Positions 95 to 57,559 of a DNA stretch of 64,000 bases are shown piece by piece; the stretch's first letter is position 1; every line of letters begins with the position of its first letter. The position numbers and the translations under genes are program-made. The stretch is from assembly GCF_026151205.1 (NCBI RefSeq), contig NC_087081.1:10789113-10853112 (forward strand), written 5' to 3'. Below the pieces are notes generated by a model. It did not search any database, was not told where the DNA came from, and saw only the letters and a program-made list of their open reading frames with translations. Source of the DNA: Bolinopsis microptera. Taxonomy: Eukaryota; Ctenophora; Tentaculata; Lobata; Bolinopsidae.

Positions 95-262
95 CTTATA
101 ATGATACTTCTTCATATGGTTTGTCCTCGCGCCCCACAGGCCACAATCCGAAGGTCTTCTCGCAGAATAACACCGATATTAGGCTTTAAGTTCAGATGTA
201 CCAGATTGACATGCTCGTTCAGATTACAGATCTGCTTGGGACAGTATGGACATTGTGGTTTT
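95..262 (-). pseudogene. Z0: degenerate finger relic
   Basis: Finger 1 is readable (CPYCPKQICNLNEHVNLV, then H). Beyond LNLKP the frame is lost: FCEKTFG occurs one frame over and HMKKYHY in the third, matching parts of Z6 (CEFCAKTFG, HMKRHHY). At least two frameshifts. It is the last recognisable module at the left edge. Confidence 0.7.
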
Positions 263-298
263 TTTAATGATCTTGGGCATGATTTTCGTTTTAGGGCT

Positions 299-458
299 GG
301 GGTGTCTTATCAACACGTGGGGTGTCTTCTTAACACGTGGGGTGTCTTCTCAACACGTGGGGTGTCTTCTTAACACGTGGGGTGTCTTCTTAACACGTGG
401 GGTGTCTTCTCAACACGTGGGGTGTCTTCTCAACACGTGGGGTGTCTTCTCAACACGT
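299..458. repeat. 20-bp minisatellite, eight units, at the end of Z1
   Basis: Units GGGGTGTCTTCTCAACACGT with T/C and T/A variants. On the minus strand a unit reads CACGTGTTGAGAAGACACCC, which encodes HVLRRHP in the Z1 frame, so the array grew from the last finger's codons. Confidence 0.95.
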
Positions 459-749
459 GGGCCGTCTTATTACTCTTCGTCTTAAATATGGCATCACAAT
501 AATCACACTTTACACAAGGCACCAAGTTCAAATGTTTCATCCTCATGTGGGACTTCCTGTTTCCCGTCGTCCCGAAACACTGGTCACAATAGTCACACTT
601 GTACGGTCTCAACTTGAGGTGCACCAAGTTCACGTGTTCCTGGAGCTTGCTGGGGGATTTGGTTTGCTTGCCACAGTAGGAGCACTGGAGGTGATTGGTC
701 ACTGGGTATGAGCCGGGTGACCAACGAACTGGATAACGAACGTACTGCA
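430..749 (-). CDS. Z1: three-finger terminal exon ending in a minisatellite
   Basis: Acceptor TCTGGTCCACAG, phase 1. Fingers start CSYCGKQTKSPSKLQEHV, CDYCDQCFGTTGNRKSHM and CDYCDAIFKTKSNKTAHV. The last finger ends AHVLRRHPTC, which is the translation of the 20-bp minisatellite unit that follows; the stop is in the first unit. Confidence 0.8.
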
Positions 750-1102
750 CTGTGGACCAGAGAGGGATTAGTGATGACGTCACATGGGTAATGCTGACGT
801 CACGTCAGGGGTGGAGGTATTAATAGCTGATTATAATATGATGGTATGATGGTGAGTAGATGAGATTGAGACTGATTGCAGGCATTTATTTTGCTAAATT
901 TTCTGAGTGTCTCTATTTACCTATTTCTTCGTGTCTTTAATTACAAGATAGATGATTAATCTTACGCAAACAAATAACGATAACAAATAATAAACAAACC
1001 GTAGCTTAGAAAATAATAAGATAATTATGAATAAGCATAAACTAATACTATCATAATGATAGAATAAGTCTGTAAAACAAGTCTACAAAAATGAGATATC
1101 GT

Positions 1103-1371
1103 TTATCGGGGAATATGCCTCCGGTCAGCAATAAATGTCCCTATCTGCTCCACCGTCATCTCGTGGGTGTAAGACAGATGGGACCTCAAATTGGTTAGCA
1201 CTGAAAACTTTTTGCCACACAGAGAACAAGAGTAACGCCAAATTTTGTGATGAACAATCTGGATGTGGGATTTTAGCTGTTTCTTGTGTTTGTAACAATA
1301 GGGACAAACTCCAGAGCTTAAACTTCTCGGGTTCACTGGGAAATCTTGTGGTCTGGCTCTGTTGGATCGGT
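1103..1371 (-). CDS. Z2: two-finger terminal exon
   Basis: Acceptor TATTACCCCCAG, phase 1; GATTTCCCAG 36 bases inside is also in phase. Finger 1 starts CPYCYKHKKQLKSHIQIV, finger 2 starts CSLCGKKFSVLTNLRSHL. Tail TVEQIGTFIADRRHIPR. Confidence 0.85.
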
Positions 1372-1384
1372 CTGGGGGTAATAT

Positions 1385-1475
1385 AACGTCACGTGTGTAA
1401 TGATGACGTCACGTGGTTAATGATGACGTCACGTGGTTAATGGTTACGTCATTTGGTTGATGATGACGTCGGGTG
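1385..1475. repeat. TGACGTCACGTGGTTAA repeats upstream of Z2
   Basis: About four 21-bp units with TGACGTCA overlapping CACGTG. The same unit recurs upstream of Z3 and past the stop of Z9. Confidence 0.9.
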
Positions 1476-1959: not shown

Positions 1960-1969
1960 CTGGGGTAAT

Positions 1970-2300: not shown

Positions 2301-2551
2301 TCATAGGGGGATATGTCTCTTTTCCTGAATAAACCTCTCTATCTCTTCAGAACTCATCTTGTGGGTGCGTTGTAAATGAAACCTCAAATTGGTCAGTACT
2401 GAAAATCTCTTCCAACACATGGAACACGAGTAATACCAGATCTTGTGATGAACAATCTGGATGTGTGATTTGAGCCGTTTCTTGTGTTTCTTGCAGTAGG
2501 GGCAAACTCCAGTTGGGGGGTACACTACCCGGCTTTGTGAACTGCTTCTGT
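2301..2551 (-). CDS. Z4: two-finger terminal exon
   Basis: Acceptor TCTCACTCAG, phase 1. Finger 1 starts CPYCKKHKKRLKSHIQIV, finger 2 starts CSMCWKRFSVLTNLRFHL. Linker HHKIWYYSC replaces the usual KPYKC type. Tail ERFIQEKRHIPL is nearly the same in Z3. Confidence 0.85.
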
Positions 2552-2848: not shown

Positions 2849-3108
2849 TCACCCGGGGTGTTTCCGACTCTTCCCCATCAAAAACTCCCTTATCTCCTCC
2901 TGGTTCATCCTGTGGGCATGATGAAGGTGGGACTTCATGTTAGTCAGCACCGAGAACTTCTTATCACAGGATGAACAAGCGTATCTCCACATTTTGAAGT
3001 GCACTATTTGAATGTGGGAGCGGAGTCCTTTTTTGAATTCTTCGCAGTAGGGACACTGGCCGGGACCCTTAGTAAACGTGTTCGGGTGCAGTTGTTGGGT
3101 AGGTGGTT
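2849..3108 (-). CDS. Z5: two-finger terminal exon
   Basis: Acceptor GTGATCTTCAG, phase 1. Finger 1 starts CPYCEEFKKGLRSHIQIV, finger 2 starts CSSCDKKFSVLTNMKSHL. Tail EEIREFLMGKSRKHPG. Oldest-looking member of the Z2-Z5 group. Confidence 0.85.
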
Positions 3109-3419: not shown

Positions 3420-3640
3420 TTAAACGTCATGGTGATCAAGTCGCTTATTATAATTCACAGAATCCATGTACTCCTCATAATGATGCCTCTTCATGTGCGT
3501 TGTTCTATTGCTGCGTTGTCCGAAAGTTTTAGCACAGAACTCACACTTGTGCAGTCTCAGCCTCAGATGCACGTCACTGATGTGGACGGAAAGCTTCGCA
3601 AAGTTCTTCCGGCAGATGGAACAATAGTATTTGGATTGGT
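3420..3640 (-). CDS. Z6: two-finger terminal exon with triple tandem acceptors
   Basis: Three copies of TTTCTCTTTCAG spaced 12 bases apart (AGs at about 3641, 3653, 3665) all give phase 1, so choice among them would add zero, four or eight residues (VSLS units). Finger 1 starts CSICRKNFAKLSVHISDV, finger 2 starts CEFCAKTFGQRSNRTTHM. Tail NYNKRLDHHDV. Confidence 0.85.
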
Positions 3641-4049
3641 CTGAAAGAGAAACTGAAAGAGAAACTGAAAGAGAAACCAAACTGTCATTTGTTTATCAGC
3701 CTAAACTGCAGATCTCTCTATTGGTAATAGATCTTAAAACTACTTAAATCTCTAATTATGCCCTTTTGACAGGATTATCCGACTTTTAGTGTTACATGAC
3801 TCACTTATTTAAGAACACTGCGCCACGAGATTTGAATGCTTTTTTCCTATCATAACTAATCAACAAAAGAAGTAAAACGATTTAAATATTTGTAATTTAT
3901 TGGTAAATAACACACGATATTACATTAATATAAGGGATTAAAATATAATTGCTAAAACAACCTATAATATTATGTGATTACACCTAGAGTCAACCACCAG
4001 AGCAAAGGCTTGCAACAGTCGCCTAAAGTTATCCAATAAAAACTTCTAC

Positions 4050-4210
4050 TTACAATTAGCTCCTCCCTCAAAACTGCTAGTACTACTCATAATTAGCTTC
4101 TCCCTCAAAACTTCTACAACTTATAATTAGCTTCTCCCTCAAAACTTCTCCAACTTAAAATTAGCTTGTCCCTCAAAACTTCTTCTACTTATAACTTTAG
4201 CTCCTCCCTC
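4050..4210. repeat. ~36-bp tandem repeat overlapping the end of Z7
   Basis: Units resemble CTTATAATTAGCTTCTCCCT followed by CAAAACTTCT. At least four copies; the right-hand ones are translated as the Z7 tail. Confidence 0.85.
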
Positions 4211-4449
4211 AAAACGTTCCTTAATAAAGAACTGCTCTGCCTCTCCTTGATTAAACAGCTCTGGGTGGATCTTTCTCATATGAACGAGTCTGTTACCACT
4301 CTGACCAAATCTCTTCTCACAAAACTGGCACTTGTACCGTTTAATCTTCAGATGGACGTCTCTTATGTGAACGTCTAAGCGAGCATATTGGATTTTGCAG
4401 TGCGGGCAAACTCCTCGGCCGTAATTGTAGTGGGAAGGTCGCTCATTTA
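4139..4449 (-). CDS. Z7: two-finger terminal exon with a repeat-extended tail
   Basis: Acceptor CTTCCCTCCCAG, phase 1. Finger 1 starts CPHCKIQYARLDVHIRDV, finger 2 starts CQFCEKRFGQSGNRLVHM. After AEQFFIKERFEGGAK the frame reads into a ~36-bp tandem repeat, adding SRRSFEGQANFKLEKF before the stop. Confidence 0.85.
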
Positions 4450-6445: not shown

Positions 6446-6492
6446 ACCGTCACGTGGTTAATGATGCCGTCACGTGGTTAATGATGACGTAT

Positions 6493-6746
6493 TCACCTCA
6501 TTCCTTTCTCAATCTGCTCTCTCCTGAAGAACCGCTCTGCAGCGATCTGTTCAAAGTGCTCTTTATGTACATTCCTCATATGGGCCAGTCTGTTACCACT
6601 CCTCCCAAACAGCTTGTCGCAGAACTGACACTTAAACCTCTTGATCTTGAGGTGGACTTCTCTCATGTGGATGTCTAGGCGAGCAAACTCTATGTTGCAG
6701 ATGGGGCAGACTCTCCGGCGGTGTCGGTAGGACTTTCGTTCACCGG
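6493..6746 (-). CDS. Z9: two-finger terminal exon
   Basis: Acceptor TACCTCCTCAG, phase 1. Finger 1 starts CPICNIEFARLDIHMREV, finger 2 starts CQFCDKLFGRSGNRLAHM. The tail AERFFRREQIEKGMR is partly duplicated as relic Z8, about 60 bp past the stop. Confidence 0.85.
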
Positions 6747-7348: not shown

Positions 7349-7680
7349 CTATCTTAAATTTTCATAGTTTGCTGTCAACCCGATTGGTTGTTTTCCCTGA
7401 GCTAGCGTTCTCTCCAACTGTTCCCTCTTAAAGAACTCTTCCGCTGCCGTCTGATCGAACACCTCTTTATGAACATTCCTCATGTGAACCAACCTATGAC
7501 CACTTTGGCCGAACCTCTTCTCACAAAATTGGCAGCGGAACCGTTTCATCTTCAGATGGACGTTTCTAATGTGCACGTCCAAGCGGGCATATTTGTTGTT
7601 ACAGTGAGGGCAGACTCTACGACCGTACGTGTGGTGACCAGAGGGTTCACTAACTCTAACTGGGAGGAGGCGGTATACAG
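7349..7680 (-). CDS. Z10: two-finger terminal exon
   Basis: The likely acceptor is TCACTTCCTCAG; CCTCCTCCCAG 21 bases inside is also in phase. Finger 1 starts CPHCNNKYARLDVHIRNV, finger 2 starts CQFCEKRFGQSGHRLVHM. The tail has AEEFFKREQLERTL and continues to ANYENLR. Confidence 0.85.
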
Positions 7681-7957: not shown

Positions 7958-8265
7958 TCAAATAAGCTCCCAAGCGCCCGCGTCCGGAAGTGGAATGTCA
8001 GAAAACGGCCGTCCCCTCTTAACATCGTTCTCAATCCGTTCCTCTTTAAAGAAAGTGTCTGCTGATCTCTGGTCAAACAGTCTACTGTGAACGTTCCTCA
8101 TATGTGACAGTCTATTCCAACTTGTCCCAAATTTCTTCTCACAGAACTGACATCTGAACCGTTTTATCTTCAGATGTACGGTTGGTATATGGATGTCTAA
8201 GCGGGCGAAATGGACGTTGCAGTGAGGGCATAGTCCACTGCGGTCATGGGGCTTCCGTTTCCGGG
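7958..8265 (-). CDS. Z11: two-finger terminal exon, donor of the Z13 first half
   Basis: Acceptor TTCCTCTTCAG, phase 1. Basic lead RKRKPHDRSG, finger 1 starts CPHCNVHFARLDIHIPTV, finger 2 starts CQFCEKKFGTSWNRLSHM. The long tail includes ADTFFKEERIEND and ends PDAGAWELI. Confidence 0.85.
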
Positions 8266-8683: not shown

Positions 8684-8970
8684 TCAGGGTCGATTATTAT
8701 GAAAATCAGTCTCCAAATAAGAGCTAGGTCGCCCTACTCTTATACCATTCTCCTCTCGCTCCATTCTGAAGAATCTATCCGCTTCATTACGATCAAACAG
8801 TTCTTTGTGTACATTTCTCATGTGTGCAAGTCTATTACCACTCCGCACAAATCTTCTGTTGCAAAACTGGCATTTAAAACATTTTATCTTGAGGTGGACC
8901 TCCTTGATGTGGATGTTTAGGAAGGCAAACCGTTTGTTGCAGTGAGGACATACTCCACTGCTCTTTCCAA
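8684..8970 (-). CDS. Z12: two-finger terminal exon
   Basis: Acceptor CTCACTTTAG, phase 1. Finger 1 starts CPHCNKRFAFLNIHIKEV, finger 2 starts CQFCNRRFVRSGNRLAHM. Long tail with ADRFFRMEREENG and a further 18 residues ending FHNNRP. Confidence 0.85.
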
Positions 8971-9344: not shown

Positions 9345-9598
9345 TTAACCCCATCTCTCCCTCTCCATCCGCTCCCTCTTAAAGAACTGCTCAGCTGATT
9401 TCTTATCGTACACCTCAGTGTGCACATTCCTCATATGAACGAGTCTATCTCCACTTCTTCCAAACCTCTTATCACAGAACTGACACCTGTACTGCTTCAG
9501 CTTGAGATGTACGGTTGGTATATGGATGTCTAGGCGAGCAAAATGGACGTTGCAGTGAGGGCAGAGTCCAATGCGGTTATGAGGTTTCCGTTTCCGGG
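9345..9598 (-). CDS. Z13: two-finger terminal exon, mosaic of Z11 and Z14
   Basis: Acceptor ACTTCTTCAG, phase 1. Lead and finger 1 (RKRKPHNRIG, CPHCNVHFARLDIHIPTV) match Z11. Linker, finger 2 and tail (CQFCDKRFGRSGDRLVHM, AEQFFKRERMERERWG) match Z14. The switch lies near VHLKLK. Intact. Confidence 0.85.
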
Positions 9599-9816: not shown

Positions 9817-10088
9817 TTAACCCCATCTCTCCCTCTCCATTCTCTCCCTCTTAAAGAACTGCTCAGCTGATTTCTTATCGTACACCTCAGTGTGCACATT
9901 CCTCATATGAACGAGTCTATCTCCACTTCTTCCAAACCTCTTATCACAGAACTGACACCTGTACTGCTTCAGCTTGAGATGGACTGTCTCTACGTGGATC
10001 TTTACTTGTTTGAAGTAACGTTTGCAGTAGGGACACTCACCTTCGTATGTTTTGTATTGAGCCATGTTCTTGAGGTGTTGGCTGAAGT
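9817..10088 (-). CDS. Z14: two-finger terminal exon, donor of the Z13 second half
   Basis: Acceptor AATACCTCAG, phase 1. Finger 1 starts CPYCKRYFKQVKIHVETV, finger 2 starts CQFCDKRFGRSGDRLVHM. The tail AEQFFKRERMERERWG is a predicted charged helix. Confidence 0.85.
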
Positions 10089-10394: not shown

Positions 10395-10500
10395 GACTCA
10401 GTCTCACAAGTTTGCTCTCTCCAGCTGGGCCTCTCTCACAAGTTAGCTCTCTCCAGCCTCTCTCCAGCCTCTCTCACAAGTTAGCTCTCTCCAGCCGCTC
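10395..10500. repeat. Tandem copies of the Z15 coding end
   Basis: Repeats of TCACAAGTTAGCTCTCTCCAG and CCTCTCTCCAG beyond the Z15 stop, derived from codons for ERLERANL. Confidence 0.85.
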
Positions 10501-10742
10501 TCTCCTGAAGAATATCTCCGCTTTCTTTTGATCGAACAGTACTGGGTGACGGTTTCTCATGTGCATTAGTCTGTTCCCACTCCTTCCAAATGTCTGGTTA
10601 CAAAACTGACACTTGTAGGGTTTCAGTTTGAAGTGAACTGTCTGAATGTGTATTTTAATCTGCTTGAAGTAACGGTTGCAATATGGGCATTCGCCGCCAG
10701 ACATGGAAACGTTTCCGAGTTGCGATGGCAGCTGGGTTGAGC
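10474..10742 (-). CDS. Z15: two-finger terminal exon
   Basis: Acceptor AAAACTTCAG, phase 1. Finger 1 starts CPYCNRYFKQIKIHIQTV, finger 2 starts CQFCNQTFGRSGNRLMHM. The tail carries the FFRRERLERANL helix typical of Z7-Z15. Its last ~30 bp are repeated several times past the stop (10395-10500). Confidence 0.85.
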
Positions 10743-11128: not shown

Positions 11129-11340
11129 CTACCACTTATTAACTTGATGATCATGTACCAGTCTCATATGCACCAGCCTATGTCCACTCTGCGTATACTC
11201 CTTGCTACAATAATAACACTTGTACGGTTTAAGCTTGAGGTGCACTGCTGCGATATGTCGAGCTAGACTTGAGGCTCTACTGTATCTCTTGTGGCAGTGA
11301 GCACACTGGACTGGCTCTTCTACTTGCATGTAACGGGGTC
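11129..11340 (-). CDS. Z16: two-finger terminal exon
   Basis: Acceptor CCCCACCCAG, phase 1. Finger 1 starts CAHCHKRYSRASSLARHI, finger 2 starts CYYCSKEYTQSGHRLVHM, ending HQVNKW. A GTGGTTTAC-type 12-bp repeat (11357-11408) lies just upstream, in the intron. Confidence 0.85.
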
Positions 11341-11912: not shown

Positions 11913-12166
11913 TTAATCCAACAAGGTTACGTCTAAATTCTCAGACTCAGTGCTATCCAAATCAGCACAGTTTTTCATATTAATCTTATGTTTTCTCTCC
12001 ATATGGACCACCAGATGAGTTTTGCGTCCGAAGCGCCAGTCACACAGATCACACGCGTAAGGTTTCAGCTTGAAGTGGACGGCGGTGATGTGACGTTTCA
12101 GGTGGGATGCAAAGAACTTGTGGCAGTAGGGGCAGGTGGTGTTGGTATCACGGATTTTAGGGACAC
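11913..12166 (-). CDS. Z17: two-finger terminal exon with a long acidic tail
   Basis: Acceptor CACTCCCAG, phase 1. Finger 1 starts CPYCHKFFASHLKRHITA, finger 2 starts CDLCDWRFGRKTHLVVHM. About 21 residues follow the last His, including ADLDSTESENLDVTLLD, which is strongly acidic. Confidence 0.85.
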
Positions 12167-12825: not shown

Positions 12826-13091
12826 TTAATACGGTGTGTGTTTATGCGTCCTCATATGTCTCATTTTATCACTATTCTGAATAAATCTTTTATCACAATA
12901 ATCACATTTGATGTGTTTAGTTCTGAAATGTACTGCTTGCACGTGCCGGTTCAGCCTTGAATAAGATTTGTGACAGAATGGACACACCGAACCGGACACT
13001 GCACGCTGTTCTTTAGGATGTCTAGACTCAGAGATACATTTCTTGGAGTCGTTGTAATTTATTGGAGGGGCGTAATAAATGCTTTCAGGAT
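12826..13091 (-). CDS. Z18: two-finger terminal exon
   Basis: Acceptor AACATTTCAG, phase 1. A long polar lead (YYAPPINYNDSKK) precedes finger 1 (CPFCHKSYSRLNRHVQAV) and finger 2 (CDYCDKRFIQNSDKMRHM). Unusual linker FRTKHIKC. Confidence 0.85.
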
Positions 13092-13313
13092 CTGAAATGT
13101 TTTTGCACGTGTAAGTTTTTGCACCTGTAAGTTGAGTGAGATACATTGAGTGTGATGCTACATATTTGATCTGCCTGATAATAAATATATTTCTCAATGC
13201 TCACGGCTATTCATACACGAAATATCACGGGGAGACGATGAGTTCCATTGTTAATTCATAAATAATGAGGGCCATAATAAAAATGTTAATATTCAAGACT
13301 TCATCTCCAAACA

Positions 13314-13777: not shown

Positions 13778-13998
13778 TCACTTTTTATAGTTTTTCTTTT
13801 CACAACTTTTCGTATGCCTCAAACGATCAGTATTATGAATGAACCCCTTGTCACAAATATGACATTTGAAGGGTTTGAAGCGGAGATGAACTCCTCTGAT
13901 ATGTCTCTTTAAGTTTCCGGGGCTGACTGAGCTGTATCTATGACAGTAAGGACATGTTTCTTGACTAACTTTTGTCATATAAACTGCATTTGGAAGAC
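13778..13998 (-). CDS. Z20: two-finger terminal exon with C2HC second finger
   Basis: Acceptor AATATTTCAG, phase 1. Finger 1 is extended (CHRYSSVSPGNLKRHI after CPY). Finger 2 starts CHICDKGFIHNTDRLRHT and its last ligand is Cys (HTKSC). Basic tail EKKNYKK. Confidence 0.8.
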
Positions 13999-14301: not shown

Positions 14302-14486
14302 TCAATGCATTCGGCTGACGTGCTTGAGCCTATCACAGTTTTGTATAAATCTCTTGTCACAATATGGACACTTGAAGGGTTTAAACCCTAAGTGAACTCC
14401 CTTGATGTGCCTTTGTAAGTTCCCTGAACAGTACTTCAAGCAGTAGGGACATGTTCCTTGGTTTCCCTTGGGCATTTGCCATGGAC
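14302..14486 (-). CDS. Z21: two-finger terminal exon
   Basis: Acceptor TAAATTTCAG, phase 1. Finger 1 starts CPYCLKYCSGNLQRHIKG, finger 2 starts CPYCDKRFIQNCDRLKHV and ends directly at the final His (RMH). The shortest finger exon seen, 61 residues plus stop. Confidence 0.85.
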
Positions 14487-14844: not shown

Positions 14845-15038
14845 TTACGAATTACGATGAATCCGTTTAATATGATCGATTCTATTACTATTCTGAGTGA
14901 ACCTCGCATCACAATATCCGCATTTATATGGCTTCAGACCAAGGTGCACCCACTTGATGTGCCTATGTAAGTTTCCTGAACAACTTCGTTGGCAGAAGGG
15001 GCAGGTTCCACGGTTTCCTTTGGGCATTCTCCATGAAC
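14845..15038 (-). CDS. Z22: two-finger terminal exon
   Basis: Acceptor CATATTTCAG, phase 1. Finger 1 starts CPFCQRSCSGNLHRHIKW and finger 2 starts CGYCDARFTQNSNRIDHI. The lead SWRMPKGNRGT is shared with Z21. Confidence 0.85.
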
Positions 15039-15293: not shown

Positions 15294-15499
15294 TCATTTC
15301 CGATGTCTTCGGTTCACGTGACTGGCTTTGTGACTCTTTTGACTAAATCTCAAACCACAGTATTCACACTGGAAAGACTTCACTTTGAAGTGGACTCCTT
15401 TTATGTGTCTGAGTAGATGTCTTTGGAAGAGTTTCTGGCAGTAAGGACAATAGCCTTGGTCTTCACTAGAGCCTCGATAATAACCTGTTGGGAGCACAT
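15294..15499 (-). CDS. Z23: two-finger terminal exon
   Basis: Acceptor AACGTTTCAG, phase 1. Finger 1 starts CPYCQKLFQRHLLRHIKG, finger 2 starts CEYCGLRFSQKSHKASHV, ending RRHRK. Essentially no tail. Confidence 0.85.
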
Positions 15500-15794: not shown

Positions 15795-16051
15795 TTATTC
15801 ACAATTATATGTCTGTTGTTTCATGACGTGCACATTCCTAAAATGCTTGACTTTATCACTCTTCTGAATGAACCTAGCACTACAGTAGTCACACTTGTAT
15901 GGCTTCAGACCAAGGTGCACTGCTCTTATGTGTCTACGTAGGTTTTTCTTGCAGACTTTCTGGCAGTAAGGGCAAATTCCCAGGTCTGGGTCAGTGGGCT
16001 GGGTTACTAGTGACGTAACAGTGACGTCATTGGACTGGGTTACTATAGAAT
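15795..16051 (-). CDS. Z24: two-finger terminal exon
   Basis: Acceptor AACCGTTTCAG, phase 1. The lead (SNDVTVTSLVTQPTDPDLG) is encoded by a stretch holding TGACGTCA, so this repeat has become coding. Finger 1 starts CPYCQKVCKKNLRRHIRA, finger 2 starts CDYCSARFIQKSDKVKHF. Confidence 0.85.
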
Positions 16052-16284: not shown

Positions 16285-16526
16285 TTACTGTCTATCCAAC
16301 TTATCAACTTTGAAAACAAAATCTTTTCCGCCGCAATGTAACCGTCTCACATGATCAACCCTGCTACTTTTCTGAGTAAATCTGGAATCACAATAGTCGC
16401 ATTTGTAGGGCTTCATTTTGAGGTGCACTCCCATGATGTGTCTCCGCAGGTTTCTCTGGAAGTATTTCTGACAATAGGGGCACCGACCGTGGTCTTCACC
16501 GTGAGCAAGGCGCTTAGTGAGAAAAT
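16285..16526 (-). CDS. Z25: two-finger terminal exon
   Basis: Acceptor AACGTTTCAG, phase 1. Lead DFLTKRLAHGEDHGR, finger 1 starts CPYCQKYFQRNLRRHIMG and finger 2 starts CDYCDSRFTQKSSRVDHV. The tail KDFVFKVDKLDRQ is charged. Confidence 0.85.
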
Positions 16527-16775: not shown

Positions 16776-17026
16776 CTACACAGTTGAATCTTCCTTGAGA
16801 TACAGTTCCGAGCTCAGTTCTGGAAATGTCCTGCCATGCATCCTGCTGACATGCTTCACTTTATCACTCTTCTGAATAAACCGGACTTCACAGTAGTCAC
16901 ACTTGTAGGGTTTCTCGTTCAGATGAACTCCCATTATGTGCCGAAATAAGTGTCGTTTGTAGTTCTTCTGACAATAAGGACAGATTCCTCGGTCTGAACC
17001 GTGGGCACGGCGTTTTTCTAGGAAAT
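16776..17026 (-). pseudogene. Z26: intact finger exon whose splice acceptor is mutated
   Basis: The coding sequence is the same as Z28, with both fingers intact. The acceptor reads GTTTCAA instead of GTTTCAG, so the AG is gone and normal joining to C6 should fail. The last nine bases overlap the run-on end of Z27. A cryptic AG might rescue it; none in phase is obvious nearby. Confidence 0.8.
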
Positions 17027-33262: not shown

Positions 33263-33481
33263 CTGAAACAGCTACAGTAGGTGAAAACGAATCATGATCC
33301 GGGATTTTGTGCCATGCACAAACAAAAACTGAGTCCACAATTAACAAATACTTAATTTAATCTAACTGTAAATTATTATATTCATAATCAAAACTTTTGC
33401 CAAATTTGGCAAATTGCCCAAAGTTCAATTTGAATGCTCCACCTTAACATGCTCAGAGGGTTAAGTCAGCGGGGACACTGT

Positions 33482-40543: not shown

Positions 40544-40818
40544 TCAGTTTCTCGTTCGATCGAAGTGTTTTGTACTCTCGTGTATAGCCCTTTTATCAGA
40601 TCTGCTGTACGAAGCGTGACAAAACCGGCATTCAAACAGCTTCAACTTGAGATGGACAGAGTTCATGTGTCTCTTTAGTTGCCAGCTACCCCGAAACTTT
40701 GCATCACATTGATCACACTTATAGGCTTTAATTCCGATGTGAAAGGTCCGAATGTGGCGCTCCATAGTCCCCTCTCTTGCGTATCTTCGGCCGCAATATT
40801 GGCAGGCAAAAAGAAGGT
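40544..40818 (-). CDS. Z66: three-finger terminal exon
   Basis: Acceptor TTTGTTTCAG, phase 1. Fingers start CQYCGRRYAREGTMERHI, CDQCDAKFRGSWQLKRHM and CRFCHASYSRSDKRAIHE. The first-to-second linker is the atypical FHIGIKAYKC. Paralogue of Z65 and Z67. Confidence 0.85.
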
Positions 40819-40999: not shown

Positions 41000-41292
41000 T
41001 TAATGTTGCTTAGAATGTCTTGTCCGTTCATGCCGAGCCCTATTTGAACTCAAGCCAAACGCCTGTTCACAAAATTGGCATTTATAAGGTCTCAATTTGA
41101 GATGAACTGCGTCGTAATGTCTCCTGAGGTGCCAGCTCTCCACAAATCTAGCGTCACAACGTTCACATTTAAAAGCTTTTTGTCCAGCGTGGATACTCTT
41201 GATGTGACGTACCATGTTAGCCTCTGTATCGTACCGCCTACCACAATAATGGCAGTAGTAGTAGCGGGGGTATGGAGGAGGAGGGGGGTCGT
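41000..41292 (-). CDS. Z67: three-finger terminal exon
   Basis: Acceptor CGTTTCAG, phase 1. A proline/tyrosine lead (DDPPPPYPRYYY) is followed by fingers starting CHYCGRRYDTEANMVRHI, CERCDARFVESWHLRRHY and CQFCEQAFGLSSNRARHE. The middle finger matches those of Z65 and Z66 (ESWxLxRH). Relic Z68 lies on its upstream side, 156 bp away. Confidence 0.85.
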
Positions 41293-41692: not shown

Positions 41693-41916
41693 TCATAAAT
41701 AATTTAGCCGATGTTTTTTTCGCTCATGTTTAGTCCGATTAGCTTTCTGCGTGAACGAAAGCTCGCAATATTGGCACTGATAAGGTTTCAACTTGAGGTG
41801 GACTCCGTTCACATGTCTCTTGAGCTGGCCGTTTCCGTCAAACAGTTTCCGACAATACGGACAGATTACAGGCCGGCAGAAATGCGGCTGATTGGGCAGC
41901 AGACAGGGTGGATCTC
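41693..41916 (-). CDS. Z69: two-finger terminal exon
   Basis: Acceptor TTCTCCCCAG, phase 1. The lead is proline/cysteine-bearing (DPPCLLPNQPHFCRPV). Finger 1 starts CPYCRKLFDGNGQLKRHV and finger 2 starts CQYCELSFTQKANRTKHE. The tail is HRLNYL. Grouped with Z70-Z71 by the GNGQLxRHVNGVH core. Confidence 0.85.
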
Positions 41917-42162: not shown

Positions 42163-42533
42163 TCAAGGCATGAGTTCTCCCAGTTTCTTCATGCTGACTA
42201 CGACTTCCTTCAAAGGATATGACATCAGCTTCTCCTTACAACTGTTACTAAAAGCTAGCAGGGTCGTCTTGTAAGTGGTTCCCCTCATGAGTTCACTAAA
42301 AACACCATGATCCACGATTTGAAGTTCAGACACATATCTGTTCCTGTAGAAATTAACACGGGGTACCCCACAAAGTCTACACGCCTCTGTCACATTCTGA
42401 GTTGATTTGTATTGGTCCAGGATTCTGTAATATTCTCTGGTTAACACGTCAATGTCACGGAGAGAGTGACGTGATCTCTTCTGCAACCAGCCGTCCGTTC
42501 CGTCGGGGTAGACGATAGAGATTGTTTGTCTGA
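42163..42533 (-). CDS. H1: alternative terminal exon, helix-turn-helix-like module
   Basis: The best acceptor is CCCGGACAG, phase 1; a second AG four bases inside would break the frame. The peptide opens RQTISIVYPDGTDGWLQKR. The core reads YYRILDQYKSTQNVTEACR and CGVPRVNFYRNRYVSELQIV, then FSNSCKEKL and the end MKKLGELMP. H1 and H2 interrupt the run of finger exons between Z69 and Z70. Confidence 0.75.
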
Positions 42534-42708: not shown

Positions 42709-43052
42709 TTACGGGATAAGTTTGCCCTGCCGACGCAAATCATGAACTTTAAAACAACGACCATGTTCCAACAGCTGTTGTTTACACACATTATTGAAGG
42801 CAGATATACTTGTGCTTTCAATGGAATCCCTCAAAAGTCTTTCAAAAACTCCTCGATCTACAATCCTTAGTTCTGAGATATATCTATTCTTGTAGAAGTT
42901 TCTCCTGCACACCCCCACCGCTTGACAAGCCTTGCTGACACTAGATGTAGCCTGGTAAGCTGTCAGGATCTTGTCGTACTCCTCTGCCAGAGTGGCTAGG
43001 TCGTGGATTGTGTTTCTTCTTTTCCAATCGTTACCTCTGTAGTCCACTGTGA
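42709..43052 (-). CDS. H2: alternative terminal exon, helix-turn-helix-like module
   Basis: Acceptor AATACTACAG, phase 1. The lead is basic (DYRGNDWKRRNTIHDL). The core reads YDKILTAYQATSSVSKACQ and VGVCRRNFYKNRYISELRIV, followed by FNNVCKQQL and the end RRQGKLIP. Adjacent H1 shares FYxNRYxSELxIVDxGVF, so the two are tandem duplicates placed far from H3-H6, inside the zinc-finger array. Confidence 0.75.
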
Positions 43053-43474: not shown

Positions 43475-43668
43475 TCAAATCCCCTGTGGCTTAGCACAGT
43501 GACACCGCTTAATATGGGAGATCTTCAGATGGTTTCTTGAGAAGTGGCGTTCACAGTAGGGGCAGGGGAAGGGCTTCAGCTTTAGGTGGACCCCGTTTAT
43601 ATGGCGGTTCAGTTGTCCGCTCCCGTTAAACGACTTGTTACAGTGAGGACACCGCCTCTGTTGTCTAT
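43475..43668 (-). CDS. Z70: two-finger terminal exon
   Basis: Acceptor GCTCACGCAG, phase 1. Finger 1 starts CPHCNKSFNGSGQLNRHI; finger 2 starts CPYCERHFSRNHLKISHI and ends KRCH, HX4H spacing. Paralogue of Z71 (shared GQLNRHIN). It lies just upstream of the H1-H2 pair in transcription order. Confidence 0.85.
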
Positions 43669-44395: not shown

Positions 44396-44850
44396 AAAAA
44401 AGAATAACGCTAACTTCTAAAAGAATAACGCTAACTTCTAAAAGAATAACGCTAACTTCTAAAAGAATAACGCTAACTTCTAAAAGAATAACGCTAACTT
44501 CTAAAAGAATAACGCTAACTTCTAAAAGAATAACGCTAACTTCTAAAAGAATAACGCTAACTTCTAAAAGAATAACGCTAACTTCTAAAAGAATAACGCT
44601 AACTTCTAAAAGAATAACGCTAACTTCTAAAAGAATAACGCTAACTTCTAAAAGAATAACGCTAACTTCTAAAAGAATAACGCTAACTTCTAAAAGAATA
44701 ACGCTAACTTCTAAAAGAATAACGCTAACTTCTAAAAGAATAACGCTAACTTCTAAAAGAATAACGCTAACTTCTAAAAGAATAACGCTAACTTCTAAAA
44801 GAATAACGCTAACTTCTAAAAGAATAACGCTAACTTCTAAAAGAATCTTC
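44396..44850. repeat. 21-bp minisatellite, about 21 units, at the end of Z71
   Basis: Near-perfect units AGAATAACGCTAACTTCTAAA. Because 21 is a multiple of three, one minus-strand frame is open right through as LEVSVIL repeats, but Z71 enters in a different frame and stops in the first unit. Confidence 0.95.
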
Positions 44851-45044
44851 ATAGTTACGATCATGTGTCCGTCTGATATGCTTGACTCTCAAATGATTGG
44901 CCGCAAAAGAGTTATTACAGAAATTACACTTGAACGGTTTCAGCTTGAGGTGGACGGCGTTTATGTGCCGGTTTAACTGTCCGTTACCGTTGAAAAGTTT
45001 AAAACAATGCGGACACCTTTTACTGCTCCCTCCAATCAGTCCAC
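44830..45044 (-). CDS. Z71: two-finger terminal exon ending in a minisatellite
   Basis: Acceptor TACTTGCAG, phase 1. Finger 1 starts CPHCFKLFNGNGQLNRHI; finger 2 is CNFCNNSFAANHLRVKHIRR with the last His in RTH. The final residues SFRS and the stop are encoded by the first 21-bp unit of the minisatellite that follows. Confidence 0.85.
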
Positions 45045-45783: not shown

Positions 45784-45992
45784 CTAGCCGCCATGTTTCC
45801 TCCCAACATGCTTCTTCAGATCAGAGACCCTGGCGAAGGGCTGGCTACAATGCTGACACTTGTGGGGGCGGATCTTGTAGTGCACCTCCCGGATATGCCG
45901 GGACAGATCGCTCATTCTCCGTCTTATCATCAGGTCACAGTGCGGACATTTTAACTTGGCAGTTCCGCCTGGGAGGCGAGTTCGGGGCGTTC
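45784..45992 (-). CDS. Z72: two-finger terminal exon
   Basis: Acceptor TCACCTCCAG, phase 1. Finger 1 starts CPHCDLMIRRRMSDLSRH and finger 2 starts CQHCSQPFARVSDLKKHV. The lead is basic (PRTRLPGGTAKL). It is a close paralogue of Z73 (shared HIREVHYKI / HVREVHYKI). A short repeat, GCCGCCATG/AATCTAGCC, lies just past the stop. Confidence 0.85.
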
Positions 45993-46302: not shown

Positions 46303-46365
46303 CCTTGCGTGACGTCACACCTGGCGTGACGTCACCCCACCTGGCGTGACGTCACACCAGGATGT
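46303..46365. repeat. TGACGTCACACCTGGCG repeats at the end of Z73
   Basis: Three TGACGTCA copies spanning the Z73 stop codon and its downstream flank. Confidence 0.9.
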
Positions 46366-46561
46366 CTCCGCCTTGCGTGTTTCTTCAGATCAGCAGCCCG
46401 AGAGAACCTCGCCTCACAAAACTGACAAACATGAGGTTTAATCTTGTAGTGGACTTCTCGGACATGTCTCTGGAGGTCGCTCAAACGGGATCTTGTGATG
46501 GTGAGCTCGCAGTGGGGACATTTTAGGATGGAGTCAGAGCTCAATCGGACTCTGGGCTTCC
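46332..46561 (-). CDS. Z73: two-finger terminal exon
   Basis: Acceptor CCAATCAG, phase 1. Finger 1 starts CPHCELTITRSRLSDLQR and is one residue long; finger 2 starts CQFCEARFSRAADLKKHA. The linker is HYKIKPHVC. The coding end runs into TGACGTCA-containing repeats, and the stop TGA lies in one of them. Confidence 0.85.
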
Positions 46562-46985: not shown

Positions 46986-47215
46986 TTACACAGTATCTCT
47001 CCCAGCCCCTTTGATAAACTGGTCCCAATGTTGTGACCTCATGTGTAACAGCCTGTTGCCACTCTGCCCGAAGGTCCGGTCACAGAAGTAGCACTTGTGT
47101 GGTTTCAACTTGAGGTGCACGTTGGTGATGTGGCGGCTTAGTTGGGATGATCCACTGTAGATCTTTCTACATTGTGGGCACTGGACTGCTTGACGATTCT
47201 TGTACTCTATATTAC
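46986..47215 (-). CDS. Z74: two-finger terminal exon
   Basis: Acceptor CTGTCTCCCAG, phase 1. Finger 1 starts CPQCRKIYSGSSQLSRHI, finger 2 starts CYFCDRTFGQSGNRLLHM, and the tail is DQFIKGAGRDTV. The DNA-contact part of finger 2 (QSGNRLLHMRSQH) is the same as in Z79 although the exons are not adjacent. Confidence 0.85.
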
Positions 47216-47611: not shown

Positions 47612-47811
47612 CTAATCGTATGCCTTATGCATCCTCTGAGCATGTTTCTTCATATCATACATTCTGGAGAACATTTTCTCACAATATCTACACTTGTAAG
47701 GTCGTATTTTAAGATGGACGGAACGTATGTGGCGATGGAGAGGTCCTCTACCAACTATTTCTAGACCACACTCAGGACAACTTGATCGGGGAGTGAGCTT
47801 CCGTCTGTGAC
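47612..47811 (-). CDS. Z75: two-finger terminal exon
   Basis: Acceptor CACTTCCCAG, phase 1. Finger 1 is CPECGLEIVGRGPLHRHIRSVH, slightly long. Finger 2 starts CRYCEKMFSRMYDMKKHA. The final ~42 bp of coding sequence are duplicated directly downstream of the stop (47573-47650). Confidence 0.85.
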
Positions 47812-48262
47812 CTGGGAAGTGGGTTAAGTTTACACACTCCACTGGGTGGGGTAAGTTTACACACTCCACTGTGAAAAGCCGCGATATTAAGTGAAATTGG
47901 AGAAGGGTCAGTTGGAGGTGTGGGATACTTTTACACAGTTCAGTGGTGGTTAGTTACTGGAGCCAGCTTTTTTACGTATTATGTAGGCAAGACAATAGAG
48001 ACAAGCAAGTAAAGTGAATTCTAAGGTTTTAATATTTATCAAAGACAATTCAATTCCCAAGTCTGAACACGTAGGTATACAGAACAAAACCACTCAATTC
48101 GTCACACAAGAAGATCAGATCAACCACAATCCATAATCGAAGTACATAAAAGAAGCAAATAAATTAATTTCACAAACTGATCATAACGAATAATGCAAAT
48201 GAATCACCACTCCACAGCTCAATATTTGGGAACCCCAACGTTCTTATAATTATGTTTATTCC

Positions 48263-48483
48263 TCAATATTTGGGAACCCCAACGTTCTTATAATTATGTT
48301 TATTCCTCATGTGTGACAACCTATGTCCGCTCTGAGTAAAACTCTTGGCGCAGTAAAAGCACTGGAAAGGTCGCTCCTTGTAATGTACCGCGGAAACATG
48401 TCGGGGTAGCTTAGCGAAGTGAACGAAGCAATGGGGACAGGTCCCAGATTGGGAATGAGGGAGAAAGTCCGTGTTGCGTTTTC
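48263..48483 (-). CDS. Z76: two-finger terminal exon
   Basis: Acceptor CTCCACCAG, phase 1. Finger 1 is CPHCFVHFAKLPRHVSAVH and finger 2 starts CFYCAKSFTQSGHRLSHM. The linker is the atypical HYKERPFQC. The last codons (about 45 bp) are duplicated in tandem just past the stop, so the C-terminus sits at a repeat boundary. Confidence 0.85.
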
Positions 48484-48838: not shown

Positions 48839-49050
48839 TTAATTCTTCTTAAATTCCCTGTGCATGTTCCTCATGTGAGACAACCTATGCCCGCTCTGAG
48901 TGAAACTTTTAGGACAATAAAAACACTTGAAGGGTCTCATCTTCAGATGAACCGTTTGGATGTGGCGTTGTACGTTAGCGAAGGGTAGAAAACAGTAGGG
49001 ACAGGAACCTGAAGTCTGGTAGCCAGCGTAGCGGTTTTGGGGCGACAATC
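48839..49050 (-). CDS. Z77: two-finger terminal exon
   Basis: Acceptor ATGTTTCCAG, phase 1. The lead is LSPQNRYAGYQTSG. Finger 1 is CPYCFLPFANVQRHIQTVH and finger 2 starts CFYCPKSFTQSGHRLSHM, ending REFKKN. Three copies of an ACACGTGATGCCCATATA-type unit lie just past the stop (48769-48832). Confidence 0.85.
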
Positions 49051-49421: not shown

Positions 49422-49654
49422 TCACTGAATGTCCCTCCGTTCCCAGTTACTGTAGTTCTGATGGTCATGTTTACTTCTCATGTGACACAGCCGATGCCCG
49501 CTCTGAGTGAAGCTCTTGGCACAGTAAAAACACTTGAAGGGCCGGAGTTTGAGGTGTATTGTCTGTACGTGGAGCTGAACGTTAGCGAAGTGGTGGTCGC
49601 AGTACGGGCAGGTGCCGGAGGTTTGGTAACGTTTGTAGACTTTGGGAGGGGTCC
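49422..49654 (-). CDS. Z78: two-finger terminal exon
   Basis: The acceptor is an unusual AAG (CACTACAAG) behind a long pyrimidine tract; the phase is correct. Finger 1 is CPYCDHHFANVQLHVQTIH and finger 2 starts CFYCAKSFTQSGHRLCHM. The tail is NYSNWERRDIQ. It is a close paralogue of Z77 and Z76. Confidence 0.8.
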
Positions 49655-49854: not shown

Positions 49855-50087
49855 TTATTTCTGGCCTCTATCTGAATCTCTCTCTGAATTTCTTTTAAGT
49901 TCAGTTCGGTGCTGGGACCTCATGTGTAACAGTCTATTACCACTCTGTCCAAATGTTCTGTCACAATAAAAGCACTTAAAGGGTTTGATTTTAAGGTGGA
50001 CGTTAGTGATATGCCGGTTCAGACTGCTGAATGTTTGTAGACAAAATGGACATAACGTGTTATTGAGTCCCCTCTTTTTGCTCAACT
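49855..50087 (-). CDS. Z79: two-finger terminal exon, the one nearest the constant region
   Basis: Acceptor TAACTTTCAG, phase 1. Finger 1 is CPFCLQTFSSLNRHITNVH and finger 2 starts CFYCDRTFGQSGNRLLHM. The tail is charged (ELKRNSERDSDRGQK). The TAA stop lies inside an AAATAAA, so the stop may overlap a polyadenylation signal. Finger 2 resembles Z74. Confidence 0.85.
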
Positions 50088-52598: not shown

Positions 52599-52978
52599 TC
52601 ACATGAACTCAGATATGATTCTACCCTGGCCTCTAAGATCCCTAGCTCTGGAAGAGAACCGCCGGTCTCCAATAGCCGTTTTACAAGCCGCTAATATCCC
52701 CACACTATCTGAATATATCTCCTGAAACTGCTGGAACCTCTCCGGGTCCAATATCTTCAGTTCCGCTACAGGTTTCCATTTATAAAAACTGGACCGTGGC
52801 ATTCCCATACACTTCAGTGCTTCTGCTATTGTGTGACCACTGTTAACTTTTTCCAGAACGTCAGCATACTGACCGTGTATCCTGTTAAAGCTCACATTAG
52901 AGACCCACATCCTCCTCTTTTTAGCGTCAGGATATAGTTTAGGAATGATAAGGTAAGGCCAATGTCTGGACTGTTCTC
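52599..52978 (-). CDS. H3: alternative terminal exon, helix-turn-helix-like module
   Basis: Acceptor CTCATTTCAG, phase 1. The peptide opens ENSRHWPYLIIPKLYPDAKK with a basic KKRR patch. Then come YADVLEKVNSGHTIAEALK and MGMPRSSFYKWKPVAELKIL, with an ILAACKTAI segment before the end RGQGRIISEFM. It stands apart from H4-H6, with about 2.9 kb of module-free sequence between them. Confidence 0.7.
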
Positions 52979-55891: not shown

Positions 55892-56253
55892 TCAGGGCAG
55901 CAGTCTACCGATATTCTTCAGATACTGCAACTTCTGAATCTGTGGAAATATCGCAAGATGTTCCCGACACAGTTTATTAAGCTCTGTAGCAGACCTCTCA
56001 GCCCGGACAAGTTCTTGAAACAGCTCAGGCTCGATCTCCATCAGTTCAACTATGTAGCGCCTCTCGTAGAAGTTAGTTTTTCTAACTCCAGTATTTTTAA
56101 AGGCCTCTGACATATTGTCTCCTGATCTAAACCTAGCCAAGACGAGCATGTACAACTTTCTTTCATACTGATAGTCCCCAAGTTTATGAAGGATTTGTAT
56201 TTGCCAGGGAGATCGAGAAGGGTGGTGACGAAGTGGGGTTCGCGGATCAGCAT
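55892..56253 (-). CDS. H4: alternative terminal exon, helix-turn-helix-like module
   Basis: Acceptor ACAACCGCAG, phase 1. After a basic, proline-containing lead (ADPRTPLRHHPSRSPWQ) come YMLVLARFRSGDNMSEAF and NTGVRKTNFYERRYIVEL, then ELNKLCREHL and the end NIGRLLP. The pattern of conserved E-A, G-V, F-Y and E-L positions matches H1-H6. Confidence 0.7.
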
Positions 56254-56387
56254 CTGCGGTTGTGAAAATGATGAATGAAATGTGAATATAATAGGTAATA
56301 TGATTTCTTAACTCAACAGAGGTTGCTCAACTGTATATCTTAATTTCCCAATATTATCATTATAAAACAACATTACAATATGACTAT

Positions 56388-56758
56388 TTAACGTGTTAAC
56401 AGACTCCCATTTCTCTTCATGTTTATAACAAGCGCGGCATACATTTCTTTCAAAAGAGTTGTCTTACATCTCGTAAGGAGTGTATGTGCACAACTAGATG
56501 ACTCTTCTAGCTGCCGATACAGATCGGGATCAACTATCCTCAACTCGGCGACTGCCTTCCATTTGTAAAACGTAGACCTAGCTAGTCCTGTGGACTTGAC
56601 TGCATCCATGACAGCGGTTCCACCGTTTACCCTCCTCAAGATTTCTGCATAATTTGCGTGGATGGTTTCTGCTGATGTAGTCTTCTTTTGTCTTGTCCAT
56701 ATGGGTTTGGCAGGGTAGTCTGTGGCAGGGATGATGATGTATCCGGGGTGTAATCTAG
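56388..56758 (-). CDS. H5: alternative terminal exon, helix-turn-helix-like module
   Basis: Acceptor TCATCCTCAG, phase 1. The peptide opens RLHPGYIIIPATDYPAKP, a start partly shared with H3 and the H3b fragment. It continues NYAEILRRVNGGTAV and DAVKSTGLARSTFYKWKAV, and ends MKRNGSLLTR. Closest relative by eye is H3, which shares FYKWK and AELRIVDP versus AELKILDP. Confidence 0.7.
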
Positions 56759-56829
56759 CTGAGGATGAGGCTGAGTTTTATACCAACTAATGTCTACCCT
56801 TACACTTATGTTTAGATTTCAGAAGAAAG

Positions 56830-57176
56830 TCAAAGGAGGGCCCCATTTCGCTGCAGCTCAAGATAAATACCCTTCAGCAAGGGAGATTCAACATGCTTTC
56901 TACAAATCTCGTTAAAGGCCCGAATGTGCATTTTATTTGCATTGGCATAGTTAAGCTCCCGACTAAACAAATCAAAGTCCACTGCATTCAGCTCAGTGAT
57001 ATGTCGACGCAGGTACCAGGACGACCGAGATATCCCCATCCGTTTACAAGCTTGGAATAGACCACCGTGTATCTTGGAGAGGAAGAGGAGTTGGTTATAC
57101 TCCTCATGAATTGAGCGCAGGTCCTTTAGGGTGTGCCGGGCACTTCGTAACCGGGACCGGTCGGTGTGGTAGGGAT
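56830..57176 (-). CDS. H6: alternative terminal exon, helix-turn-helix-like module
   Basis: Acceptor TTCCCTCAG, phase 1. It is the terminal exon closest to C6. It encodes about 115 residues: a basic start (DRSRLRSARHTLKDLRSIHE), then EEYNQLL, then the signature ACKRMGISRSSWYLRRHITEL, then a C-terminal half with an FNEICRK segment ending QRNGALL. The signature spacing looks like a helix-turn-helix. It vaguely recalls CCDC106-like vertebrate proteins, but I cannot confirm this. No zinc-finger residues are present. Confidence 0.7.
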
Positions 57177-57509
57177 CTGAGGGAACTCCAGTAACTCTAC
57201 CAGGAGTGAAGATGGCAAATGTAGAAGAAATGGGAACGTGAGCAGGCCAGAACGATTGAATTACACTTTCGGCTTATAATGTTAAGTGTCAACGAAAAGG
57301 CAAATAGCATGTACGTATCATGATTTGGAAAAATTGGGTAATTTGAGATTGAAATTAACTTTAAGGACATCGTTCTAAGTTTCACGAATGTAAAATAAAT
57401 TTCACTTTCCCAACCGCCTGTAACCCCGCATCCCCAAGAATACAATACATAGTCCATCTCTGAAATCCAAACATTCAAATCGTTCTAAAAAAGTTTGTTT
57501 TTCACTTAC

Positions 57510-57559
57510 TCGGATTGGTAGATCCACTGCCGCCGGCCTTGTTGTCCATTAGACTCTTT
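57510..57559 (-). CDS. C6: 50-nt micro-exon that joins to the alternative exons
   Basis: Acceptor TTTATTTCAG and donor CCGA|GTAAGT bound 50 nt, phase 2 to phase 1. With C5 it encodes LKSLMDNKAGGSGSTNP, a flexible glycine/serine hinge, and leaves a single A to start the next codon. Every alternative exon examined needs exactly one upstream base. Since stop codons begin with T, the A-led junction codon cannot be a stop whichever exon is chosen. Confidence 0.8.

Follow-up and report, generated by a model that had tools for sequence, protein, structure and literature searches.

We have analysed 64,000 nucleotides (nt) of the genome of the ctenophore Bolinopsis microptera (RefSeq assembly GCF_026151205.1, contig NC_087081.1, here contig C10, positions 10,789,113 to 10,853,112; referred to below as the window), the minus strand of which carries a set of constant exons ending in a short hinge exon, followed by a long array of exons encoding C2H2 zinc fingers and a smaller number encoding a CCDC106-like helical domain (H exons). 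The arrangement probably represents one gene, in which a constant N-terminal half would be spliced through the hinge to any of more than 100 alternative terminal exons. No description of this locus was found among the matches listed in a literature search, most subscription journals lying outside its scope.

Constant exons, hinge and zinc-finger array

Six constant exons, joined in phase, give a reading frame of 410 amino acids (aa) with intron phases 1, 1, 2, 0, 2 and 1:

59959..60119, minus: C1, first coding exon with its ATG at 60106; carries the N-terminal exon-1 domain of ~45 aa, which is conserved
59473..59568, minus: C2, constant exon
59181..59298, minus: C3, constant exon
58745..58991, minus: C4, constant exon, serine/glutamine (S/Q)-rich
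57782..58353, minus: C5, constant exon, low-complexity and serine/proline (S/P)-rich, with an NPLSML motif also present in loci B and C (see below)
57510..57559, minus: C6, 50-nt hinge exon, donor GTAAGT, phase-1 exit

The hinge donor is GTAAGTGA, the 3' end of the exon reading ...AAT CCG A/GTAAGT (N-P-A/gtaag, the stroke marking the exon edge); because the split codon begins with A, no stop is possible at any hinge junction codon. In the constant protein the exon-1 domain is followed by a long S/Q/P-rich region, which leads into a short glycine/serine hinge, and only a single set of constant exons is present near the array. Comparison of this protein with Pfam gave zero families above cut-off, with no BTB match, and a BTB search in which the best 150 of 309 candidates were scored listed none near the locus. 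The exon-1 domain was modelled from its single sequence as two helices, with a predicted local distance difference test (pLDDT) value of 66 that is too weak for a structure search. An AG acceptor lies 13 nt 5' of the C1 ATG, an acceptor-like AG site being visible by eye at 60101-60120.

Matches to the C2H2 pattern in the window numbered 152 on the minus strand versus nine on the plus strand, of which four sit opposite a minisatellite derived from a finger exon. With a zinc-finger hidden Markov model (HMM) built from 67 window modules, 83 zinc-finger frames were identified in the window, every one on the minus strand; because the model was trained on window modules, its matches there arise partly by construction, and those in the DNA to the left and on contig C3 (both described below) are independent. 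A frame was counted as intact when it held at least two fingers by pattern together with a hinge-compatible acceptor, acceptors being ranked by a simple score devised for this analysis. By this definition 72 of the 83 frames are intact-looking and the other 11 are either fragmentary or without an acceptor that could be used; intact exons are spaced at a median of 637 nt. When two exons were scanned with the Pfam C2H2 family PF00096 (gathering cut-off 25.2), one scored 37.6, over the cut-off, and the other 23.9, just under it. The window was also scanned for Rfam families and tRNAs, with no matches. The finger exons, defined from the HMM and the scan for acceptors and intactness, are as follows:

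49855..50087, minus: ZF terminal exon 1
49422..49654, minus: ZF terminal exon 2
48839..49050, minus: ZF terminal exon 3
48263..48483, minus: ZF terminal exon 4 (other phase has better acceptor)
47612..47841, minus: ZF terminal exon 5
46986..47215, minus: ZF terminal exon 6
46332..46561, minus: ZF terminal exon 7 (other phase has equal acceptor)
45784..45992, minus: ZF terminal exon 8
44830..45044, minus: ZF terminal exon 9
43475..43668, minus: ZF terminal exon 10
41693..41916, minus: ZF terminal exon 11
41000..41292, minus: ZF terminal exon 12 (3 fingers)
40544..40818, minus: ZF terminal exon 13 (3 fingers)
40074..40363, minus: ZF terminal exon 14 (3 fingers)
39601..39890, minus: ZF terminal exon 15 (3 fingers)
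38795..39084, minus: ZF terminal exon 16 (3 fingers)
38240..38544, minus: ZF terminal exon 17 (3 fingers)
37671..37957, minus: ZF terminal exon 18 (3 fingers)
36949..37259, minus: ZF terminal exon 19 (3 fingers)
36238..36569, minus: ZF terminal exon 20 (3 fingers)
35825..36036, minus: ZF terminal exon 21 (other phase has better acceptor)
35209..35504, minus: ZF terminal exon 22
34703..34914, minus: ZF terminal exon 23
34067..34278, minus: ZF terminal exon 24
33482..33720, minus: ZF terminal exon 25
33057..33271, minus: ZF terminal exon 26
32578..32789, minus: ZF terminal exon 27
32124..32335, minus: ZF terminal exon 28
31327..31565, minus: ZF terminal exon 29
30799..31043, minus: ZF terminal exon 30
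30429..30607, minus: ZF terminal exon 31
29685..29869, minus: ZF terminal exon 32
28681..28874, minus: ZF terminal exon 33
28266..28501, minus: ZF terminal exon 34 (mosaic of exons 29 and 33)
27797..27984, minus: ZF terminal exon 35
27054..27238, minus: ZF terminal exon 36 (minisatellite of own second finger adjoins)
25988..26184, minus: ZF terminal exon 37
25315..25517, minus: ZF terminal exon 38
24849..25063, minus: ZF terminal exon 39
23772..23989, minus: ZF terminal exon 40
23317..23543, minus: ZF terminal exon 41
22754..22986, minus: ZF terminal exon 42
22485..22702, minus: ZF terminal exon 43
21966..22153, minus: ZF terminal exon 44
19784..19992, minus: ZF terminal exon 45
19220..19470, minus: ZF terminal exon 46
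18734..18975, minus: ZF terminal exon 47 (other phase has better acceptor)
17522..17739, minus: ZF terminal exon 48
17018..17265, minus: ZF terminal exon 49
16776..16993, minus: ZF terminal exon 50 (close duplicate of exon 48)
16285..16526, minus: ZF terminal exon 51
15795..16006, minus: ZF terminal exon 52
15294..15499, minus: ZF terminal exon 53
14845..15038, minus: ZF terminal exon 54
14302..14486, minus: ZF terminal exon 55
13778..13983, minus: ZF terminal exon 56
12826..13124, minus: ZF terminal exon 57
11913..12166, minus: ZF terminal exon 58
11129..11340, minus: ZF terminal exon 59
10474..10742, minus: ZF terminal exon 60
9817..10088, minus: ZF terminal exon 61
9345..9598, minus: ZF terminal exon 62
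8684..8970, minus: ZF terminal exon 63
7958..8265, minus: ZF terminal exon 64
7349..7680, minus: ZF terminal exon 65
6493..6746, minus: ZF terminal exon 66
4139..4449, minus: ZF terminal exon 67
3420..3664, minus: ZF terminal exon 68
2849..3108, minus: ZF terminal exon 69
2301..2551, minus: ZF terminal exon 70
1103..1371, minus: ZF terminal exon 71
430..749, minus: ZF terminal exon 72 (3 fingers; array goes on left of window)

A further 60 kilobases (kb) of DNA to the left of the window was included as a left extension, the leftmost 9.7 kb of which is without zinc-finger frames. The extended array, hereafter locus A, holds 125 zinc-finger frames over ~100 kb (contig C10, 10738832-10839206), all on the minus strand and none on the plus, 110 of them intact, and its end at 10738832 lies ~50 kb left of the window edge.

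The window also contains six H exons; at least one more is present in the left extension (making seven in locus A) and one in locus B:

56830..57176, minus: H1, CCDC106-like helical domain, weak hinge-phase acceptor
56388..56770, minus: H2, CCDC106 (PF15794) above the Pfam cut-off, acceptor at 56770 or later
55892..56253, minus: H3
52599..52978, minus: H4
42709..43052, minus: H5
42163..42533, minus: H6

H1, H2 and H4 were scanned with PF15794 (gathering cut-off 30.2), H2 scoring 32.5 bits, over the cut-off, and H4 21.4, under it, while H1 gave no match at E<=1. A structure model derived from the six window sequences is all-helical (pLDDT 83.7), and the first eight of its 38 Foldseek matches were LEAFY DNA-binding domains on DNA (E values of 0.033-0.41, none below 0.001); these matches are weak but would fit a role of the H domain in DNA binding. 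Seven of the eight H exons, including five of the six in the window, have no acceptor that scores above the hinge-phase one, the exception being H1.

An earlier interpretation made from the letters of the window (the sequence-only reading) had described six constant exons in phase, a 50-nt hinge exon, about 73 intact-looking finger exons and six H exons, all in one orientation over 57 kb. The constant frame, the hinge (57559-57510, with its phase-1 donor), the H exons and the single orientation of all 83 frames were upheld, and the finger count agreed closely with the 72 obtained here; the 57-kb boundary proved too small, given the frames continuing to the left.

A second array and the exon-1 family

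Exon 1 is the chief part of the constant exons to be matched elsewhere in the genome and is common to five loci:

Locus A: window, contig C10, minus strand, reference exon-1 copy
Locus B: contig C3:20573054, exon-1 77% identity to A
Locus C: contig C10:11557909, exon-1 62% identity to A
Locus D: contig C5:17721694, exon-1 67% identity to A
Locus E: contig C10:9664970, exon-1 58% identity to A

In loci B-E the exon-1 domain of ~45 aa (58-77% identity to that of the window) stops at the same residue, where a GT donor follows, and by eye an AG site resembling a spliced-leader acceptor lies close 5' of the ATG in exon 1 of each of B, C, D and E. Two weaker exon-1 matches are located at contig C5:6454147 and contig C13:8458122.

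Locus B has its own constant exons, including an S/P/Q-rich exon, and a 59-nt hinge exon (contig C3:20575810-20575868) that also ends N-P-A/gtaag in phase 1. It bears 116 finger frames at contig C3 20579900-20706309 (~126 kb), all on the strand of the constant exons, and 86 of these are intact, a count that is lowered because the finger pattern misses some C2HC ends. The exon-1 domain recurs at locus C together with an exon bearing the NPLSML motif, and two of the three finger frames there are in the hinge phase; on the minus strand at contig C10 ~11549178, a frame containing a basic, bZIP-like stretch (NREAQKRCRERKR) is situated among the finger exons. At locus D (minus strand, contig C5:17713001-17723000) the exon-1 domain is accompanied by later exons that, by eye, encode a homeodomain. 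No finger exons were found in the 10 kb analysed at locus D or in the 8 kb at locus E, where 3,888 of the 8,000 bases are N. We infer from these sequences a family of transcription factors that begin with the exon-1 domain, two members of which bear giant arrays. Because the search for finger arrays scored the best 150 of 487 candidates, there may be further arrays of this kind.

A separate ~2.8-kb segment of contig C7 (13881001-13889000, offset 2746-5533) contains four finger exons and is 99.1-99.9% identical to window 8224-10983. There was no exon-1 match on contig C7 among the matches listed, and the copy is either a recent transposed duplicate or an assembly artefact.

Splice phase, putative terminal exons and the probable mode of joining

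In the window the best acceptor lies in the hinge phase for 71 of the 83 zinc-finger frames; the remaining 12, five of which are minisatellite pieces at 26629-27082, are divided between the other two phases (six and five) and one frame without an acceptor. The sequence-only reading, according to which every terminal exon examined enters in phase 1, is thus right for most exons, though not for all of them. Hinge-phase acceptors are best in 106 of the 125 frames of locus A as a whole (nine and eight in the other phases, two without acceptor) and in 94 of the 116 frames of locus B (13 and nine in the others). As controls, non-finger frames of at least 60 aa with an acceptor favoured the hinge phase in 66 of 163 cases on the minus strand of locus A and in 84 of 201 on its plus strand; for locus B, the corresponding figure on the strand of the array was 63 of 173. 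The mean best-acceptor score was 0.89 in finger frames versus 0.70-0.76 across the four control sets.

Among exons with a hinge-phase acceptor, an in-frame methionine 5' of the first finger is present in 17 of 117 in locus A and 14 of 113 in locus B, and most exons therefore need coding sequence from elsewhere to start translation. Strong donors between the last finger and a point 100 nt beyond the stop occur in 5 of 119 exons in A (6.0 expected) and 4 of 107 in B (7.0 expected); that they are not above expectation speaks against internal exons. The last finger is followed by a stop after a median of 10 aa (n=229). The 0-180 nt 3' of the stops are C-poor and G/T-richer, with C climbing near 200 nt, a composition that would fit a short 3' untranslated region. 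We infer that the hinge donor would join one finger or H exon per mRNA, mainly in cis on a long transcript, each terminal exon supplying both a DNA-binding domain and a stop codon of its own, and that one locus would in this way give rise to many proteins with a common body that differ in the DNA they read.

The finger exons might instead be separate mini-genes that receive their 5' ends from the ctenophore spliced leader. According to work on Hormiphora, at least 56% of Iso-Seq reads carry that leader, and clusters of genes have a common short 5' exon; however, the Hormiphora leader, which is from another species, is there given without an ATG, and the finger exons seldom carry their own in-frame methionine. 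A leader junction needs no single phase, whereas a single one prevails among the acceptors. The 14-nt leader core had no exact match in the sequence read from the loci; with two mismatches allowed, two matches were obtained in locus A (both, by eye, in finger codons) and five in locus B, on either strand. We regard mini-genes as very unlikely.

The same proteins could also be made by intragenic trans-splicing, with the constant exons and blocks of finger exons transcribed separately, an alternative that we consider fairly unlikely. It has a precedent in Drosophila, where at least 18 of the more than 30 mod(mdg4) isoforms, and one of lola, are apparently trans-spliced, some mod(mdg4) exons being on the opposite strand (PMC4528330). 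Extensive spliced-leader trans-splicing of ctenophore RNAs is likewise reported, and the four-exon copy on contig C7, with no exon-1 match listed there, would need trans-splicing if used. Against this, all the finger frames found lie downstream of the constant exons and on the same strand, as splicing in cis requires; this is a weak point, and strand does not decide between the two because the exons of mosquito mod(mdg4) are reported to lie, apparently, all on one strand (PMC4528330).

Several observations weigh against hinge splicing to an array of terminal exons. Frames whose best acceptor is outside the hinge phase number 19 of 125 in locus A and 22 of 116 in locus B, and in H1 another phase outscores the hinge-phase acceptor. 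The polyadenylation signal AATAAA is not enriched within 400 nt after the stop, being found in 37 of 125 cases in A (34.7 in shuffles, 65 antisense) and 21 of 116 in B (33.0 in shuffles, 51 antisense). In the same genome, 3' ends of iGluR and KLHL-type genes without introns served as controls and had AATAAA little more often, in 7 of 20 (antisense 8 of 20), and AATAAA or ATTAAA in 12 of 20, so that its scarcity after the finger exons counts neither way; of 22 such genes taken, 20 were long enough, and a few ended 17 and 35 codons in, at a stop that is perhaps false. Selection against premature polyadenylation signals was considered and dropped, other hexamers of five A and one T having a similar strand bias. 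The 12-mer TTGGGGATGCGG occurs in both hinge introns (window 57437-57426, 72 nt in; contig C3 ~20576067, 198 nt in), a sharing that may be due to chance because five 12-mers are shared where 1.4 are expected from shuffles. In three of four comparisons, pairing of the docking/selector type between TTGGGGATGCGG and pre-acceptor DNA did not exceed that of shuffled elements; in the fourth it was ~1 standard deviation stronger. The dN/dS estimate given below comes from nine pairs only, and a k-mer scan around the exons revealed no motif common to most of them. This last result bears also on somatic DNA rearrangement, by which the constant part would be linked to one exon: the layout is superficially like that of rearranging receptor loci, but no motif flanks most exons, and the acceptors and consensus donor make splicing sufficient, so that we consider rearrangement extremely improbable.

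Selection, array growth and related systems

Of 620 pairs of finger exons compared, nine non-overlapping pairs with a synonymous difference of at most 0.6 were retained for estimation of the ratio of nonsynonymous to synonymous change (dN/dS), the rest being too diverged, too alike or sharing an exon. The pooled dN/dS was 0.43 (nonsynonymous differences 398.5 over 1586 sites, synonymous 186.5 over 403; Fisher p 7e-16), and that of the six closest pairs (at least 64% identity) was 0.31 (Fisher p 3e-18). Close finger-exon pairs are under purifying selection. This result bears on the possibility that only a handful of finger exons is used, the remainder being duplicated and silent or decaying. 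The 11 fragmentary or acceptor-less frames of the window, together with the minisatellite and mosaic finger copies described below, which indicate active turnover, are in keeping with such decay; on the other side stand the 72 intact frames, the pooled dN/dS and the persistence of fingers and phase despite a mean module identity within loci of ~0.34-0.51. Use of a mere handful therefore seems to us unlikely.

The finger-2 contact signature (positions -1, 2, 3 and 6) is distinct in 79 of 94 cases in locus A and 61 of 71 in locus B, with the structural phenylalanine of finger 2 near-fixed (91 of 94 and 67 of 71, respectively). Across 66 close finger-2 pairs, position +6 changes most (0.61); because one non-contact position (0.56) nearly matches it, our claim is one of diversity and does not extend to positive selection. 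Mean finger identity falls from lag 1 to lag 10 (0.51 to 0.39 in A, 0.44 to 0.35 in B), as tandem duplication predicts, and for 155 of 176 modules the nearest relative lies within the same locus. The exon at 28501-28266 is a mosaic: 31683-31414 matches its 5' part at 98.1% identity and 28771-28630 its 3' part at 97.2%, with the join between fingers 1 and 2; fingers have therefore been reassorted besides being duplicated. In the minisatellite at 26630-27129 an 85-bp unit derived from finger 2 of exon 27238-27054 is repeated 5.9 times, and since 85 is not a multiple of three the frame cycles. The exon set would thus have expanded by tandem duplication and recombination between neighbours, with selection keeping function.

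The arrangement is best read as an alternative terminal-exon gene of the lola/mod(mdg4) kind, without BTB and four to six times larger. As in lola-type genes there is one constant 5' part and there are many terminal exons, mostly in one phase, each with its own DNA-binding domain and stop and mostly without its own start or a downstream donor; the N-terminal BTB of the BTB-zinc-finger family (lola, mod(mdg4), broad) was not found. The ends of mod(mdg4) are FLYWCH, whereas those described here are C2H2 and CCDC106-like, with all frames on one strand behind a body without BTB. Dscam1 likewise has large exon arrays with a one-of-many choice, but its exons are internal, encode a surface receptor and are chosen by docking/selector pairing; those of Bolinopsis are predicted to be terminal, and the pairing test of TTGGGGATGCGG was negative. 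Clusters of KRAB zinc-finger genes also expand in tandem and diversify, each finger set being a gene with its own promoter, whereas here a single 5' half appears to serve all the finger sets. If the joins occur, we know of no larger alternative terminal-exon system. The sequence-only reading, which is supported in part, had envisaged one of the largest such arrays and understated its scale, which is 125 finger frames plus a second locus with 116; the mutually exclusive use of the ends and the single promoter that it proposed are putative.

That reading had also named lola, with about twenty ends, as the nearest comparison, and this was borne out: lola has a constant N-terminal part and one of many C-terminal exons, most of them zinc-finger, giving ~20 isoforms (PMC1947980, PMC4528330). 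Both systems have a constant part with many ends, a few of them non-finger, the joins being predicted in the present one; they differ in the lack of BTB here, in the 125 finger frames compared with ~20 isoforms, in belonging to a ctenophore rather than an arthropod and in the existence of a second locus of similar size. In mod(mdg4), too, the alternative 3' exons of the isoforms lie behind one N-terminal part (PMC4528330). A further comparison is with CTEP1 and CTEP2, ctenophore-specific zf-C2H2 loop-anchor proteins, which are abundant C2H2 proteins confined to ctenophores (PMC12221973).

If the joins occur, the strategy of lola would have evolved on two occasions, behind different N-terminal parts, and many regulators would be added to the ctenophore repertoire that gene models have perhaps missed or split. 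The locus would also be a natural system in which one donor chooses among more than 100 acceptors, with a second array locus available for comparison. Ctenophores are argued to be sister to all other animals in one of two sources (PMC11797021, PMC10232365). We suggest tentatively, as something that may or may not hold, that a class of genes evolved in ctenophores independently of arthropods, in which at least two loci splice a non-BTB body to ~100 finger ends each to give ~200 or more transcription or architectural factors from two 5' ends; a per-cell identity code, or fast-evolving readers directed against transposons or serving chromatin loop anchors, could follow.

A number of other sequence features were noted. 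A 20-bp tandem unit containing CACGTG adjoins several finger exons (1386-1479, 1973-2085 and 6447-6490), and a perfect 21-bp tandem repeat of 21.4 copies at 44398-44846 is spanned by a plus-strand open frame of 192 aa. Interstitial telomere-like (CCCTAA) repeats are present at 6838-6976 and ~62500. Of two iGluR loci compared with PDB entries, one matched the Mnemiopsis leidyi receptor ML032222a best and the other vertebrate kainate receptors, while family searches for COX1 and STING gave no matches, the STING search giving none in any control genome either. Elsewhere the genome contains many KLHL-like BTB frames that lack introns and lie in tandem groups, as well as many iGluR matches that extend over one long frame.

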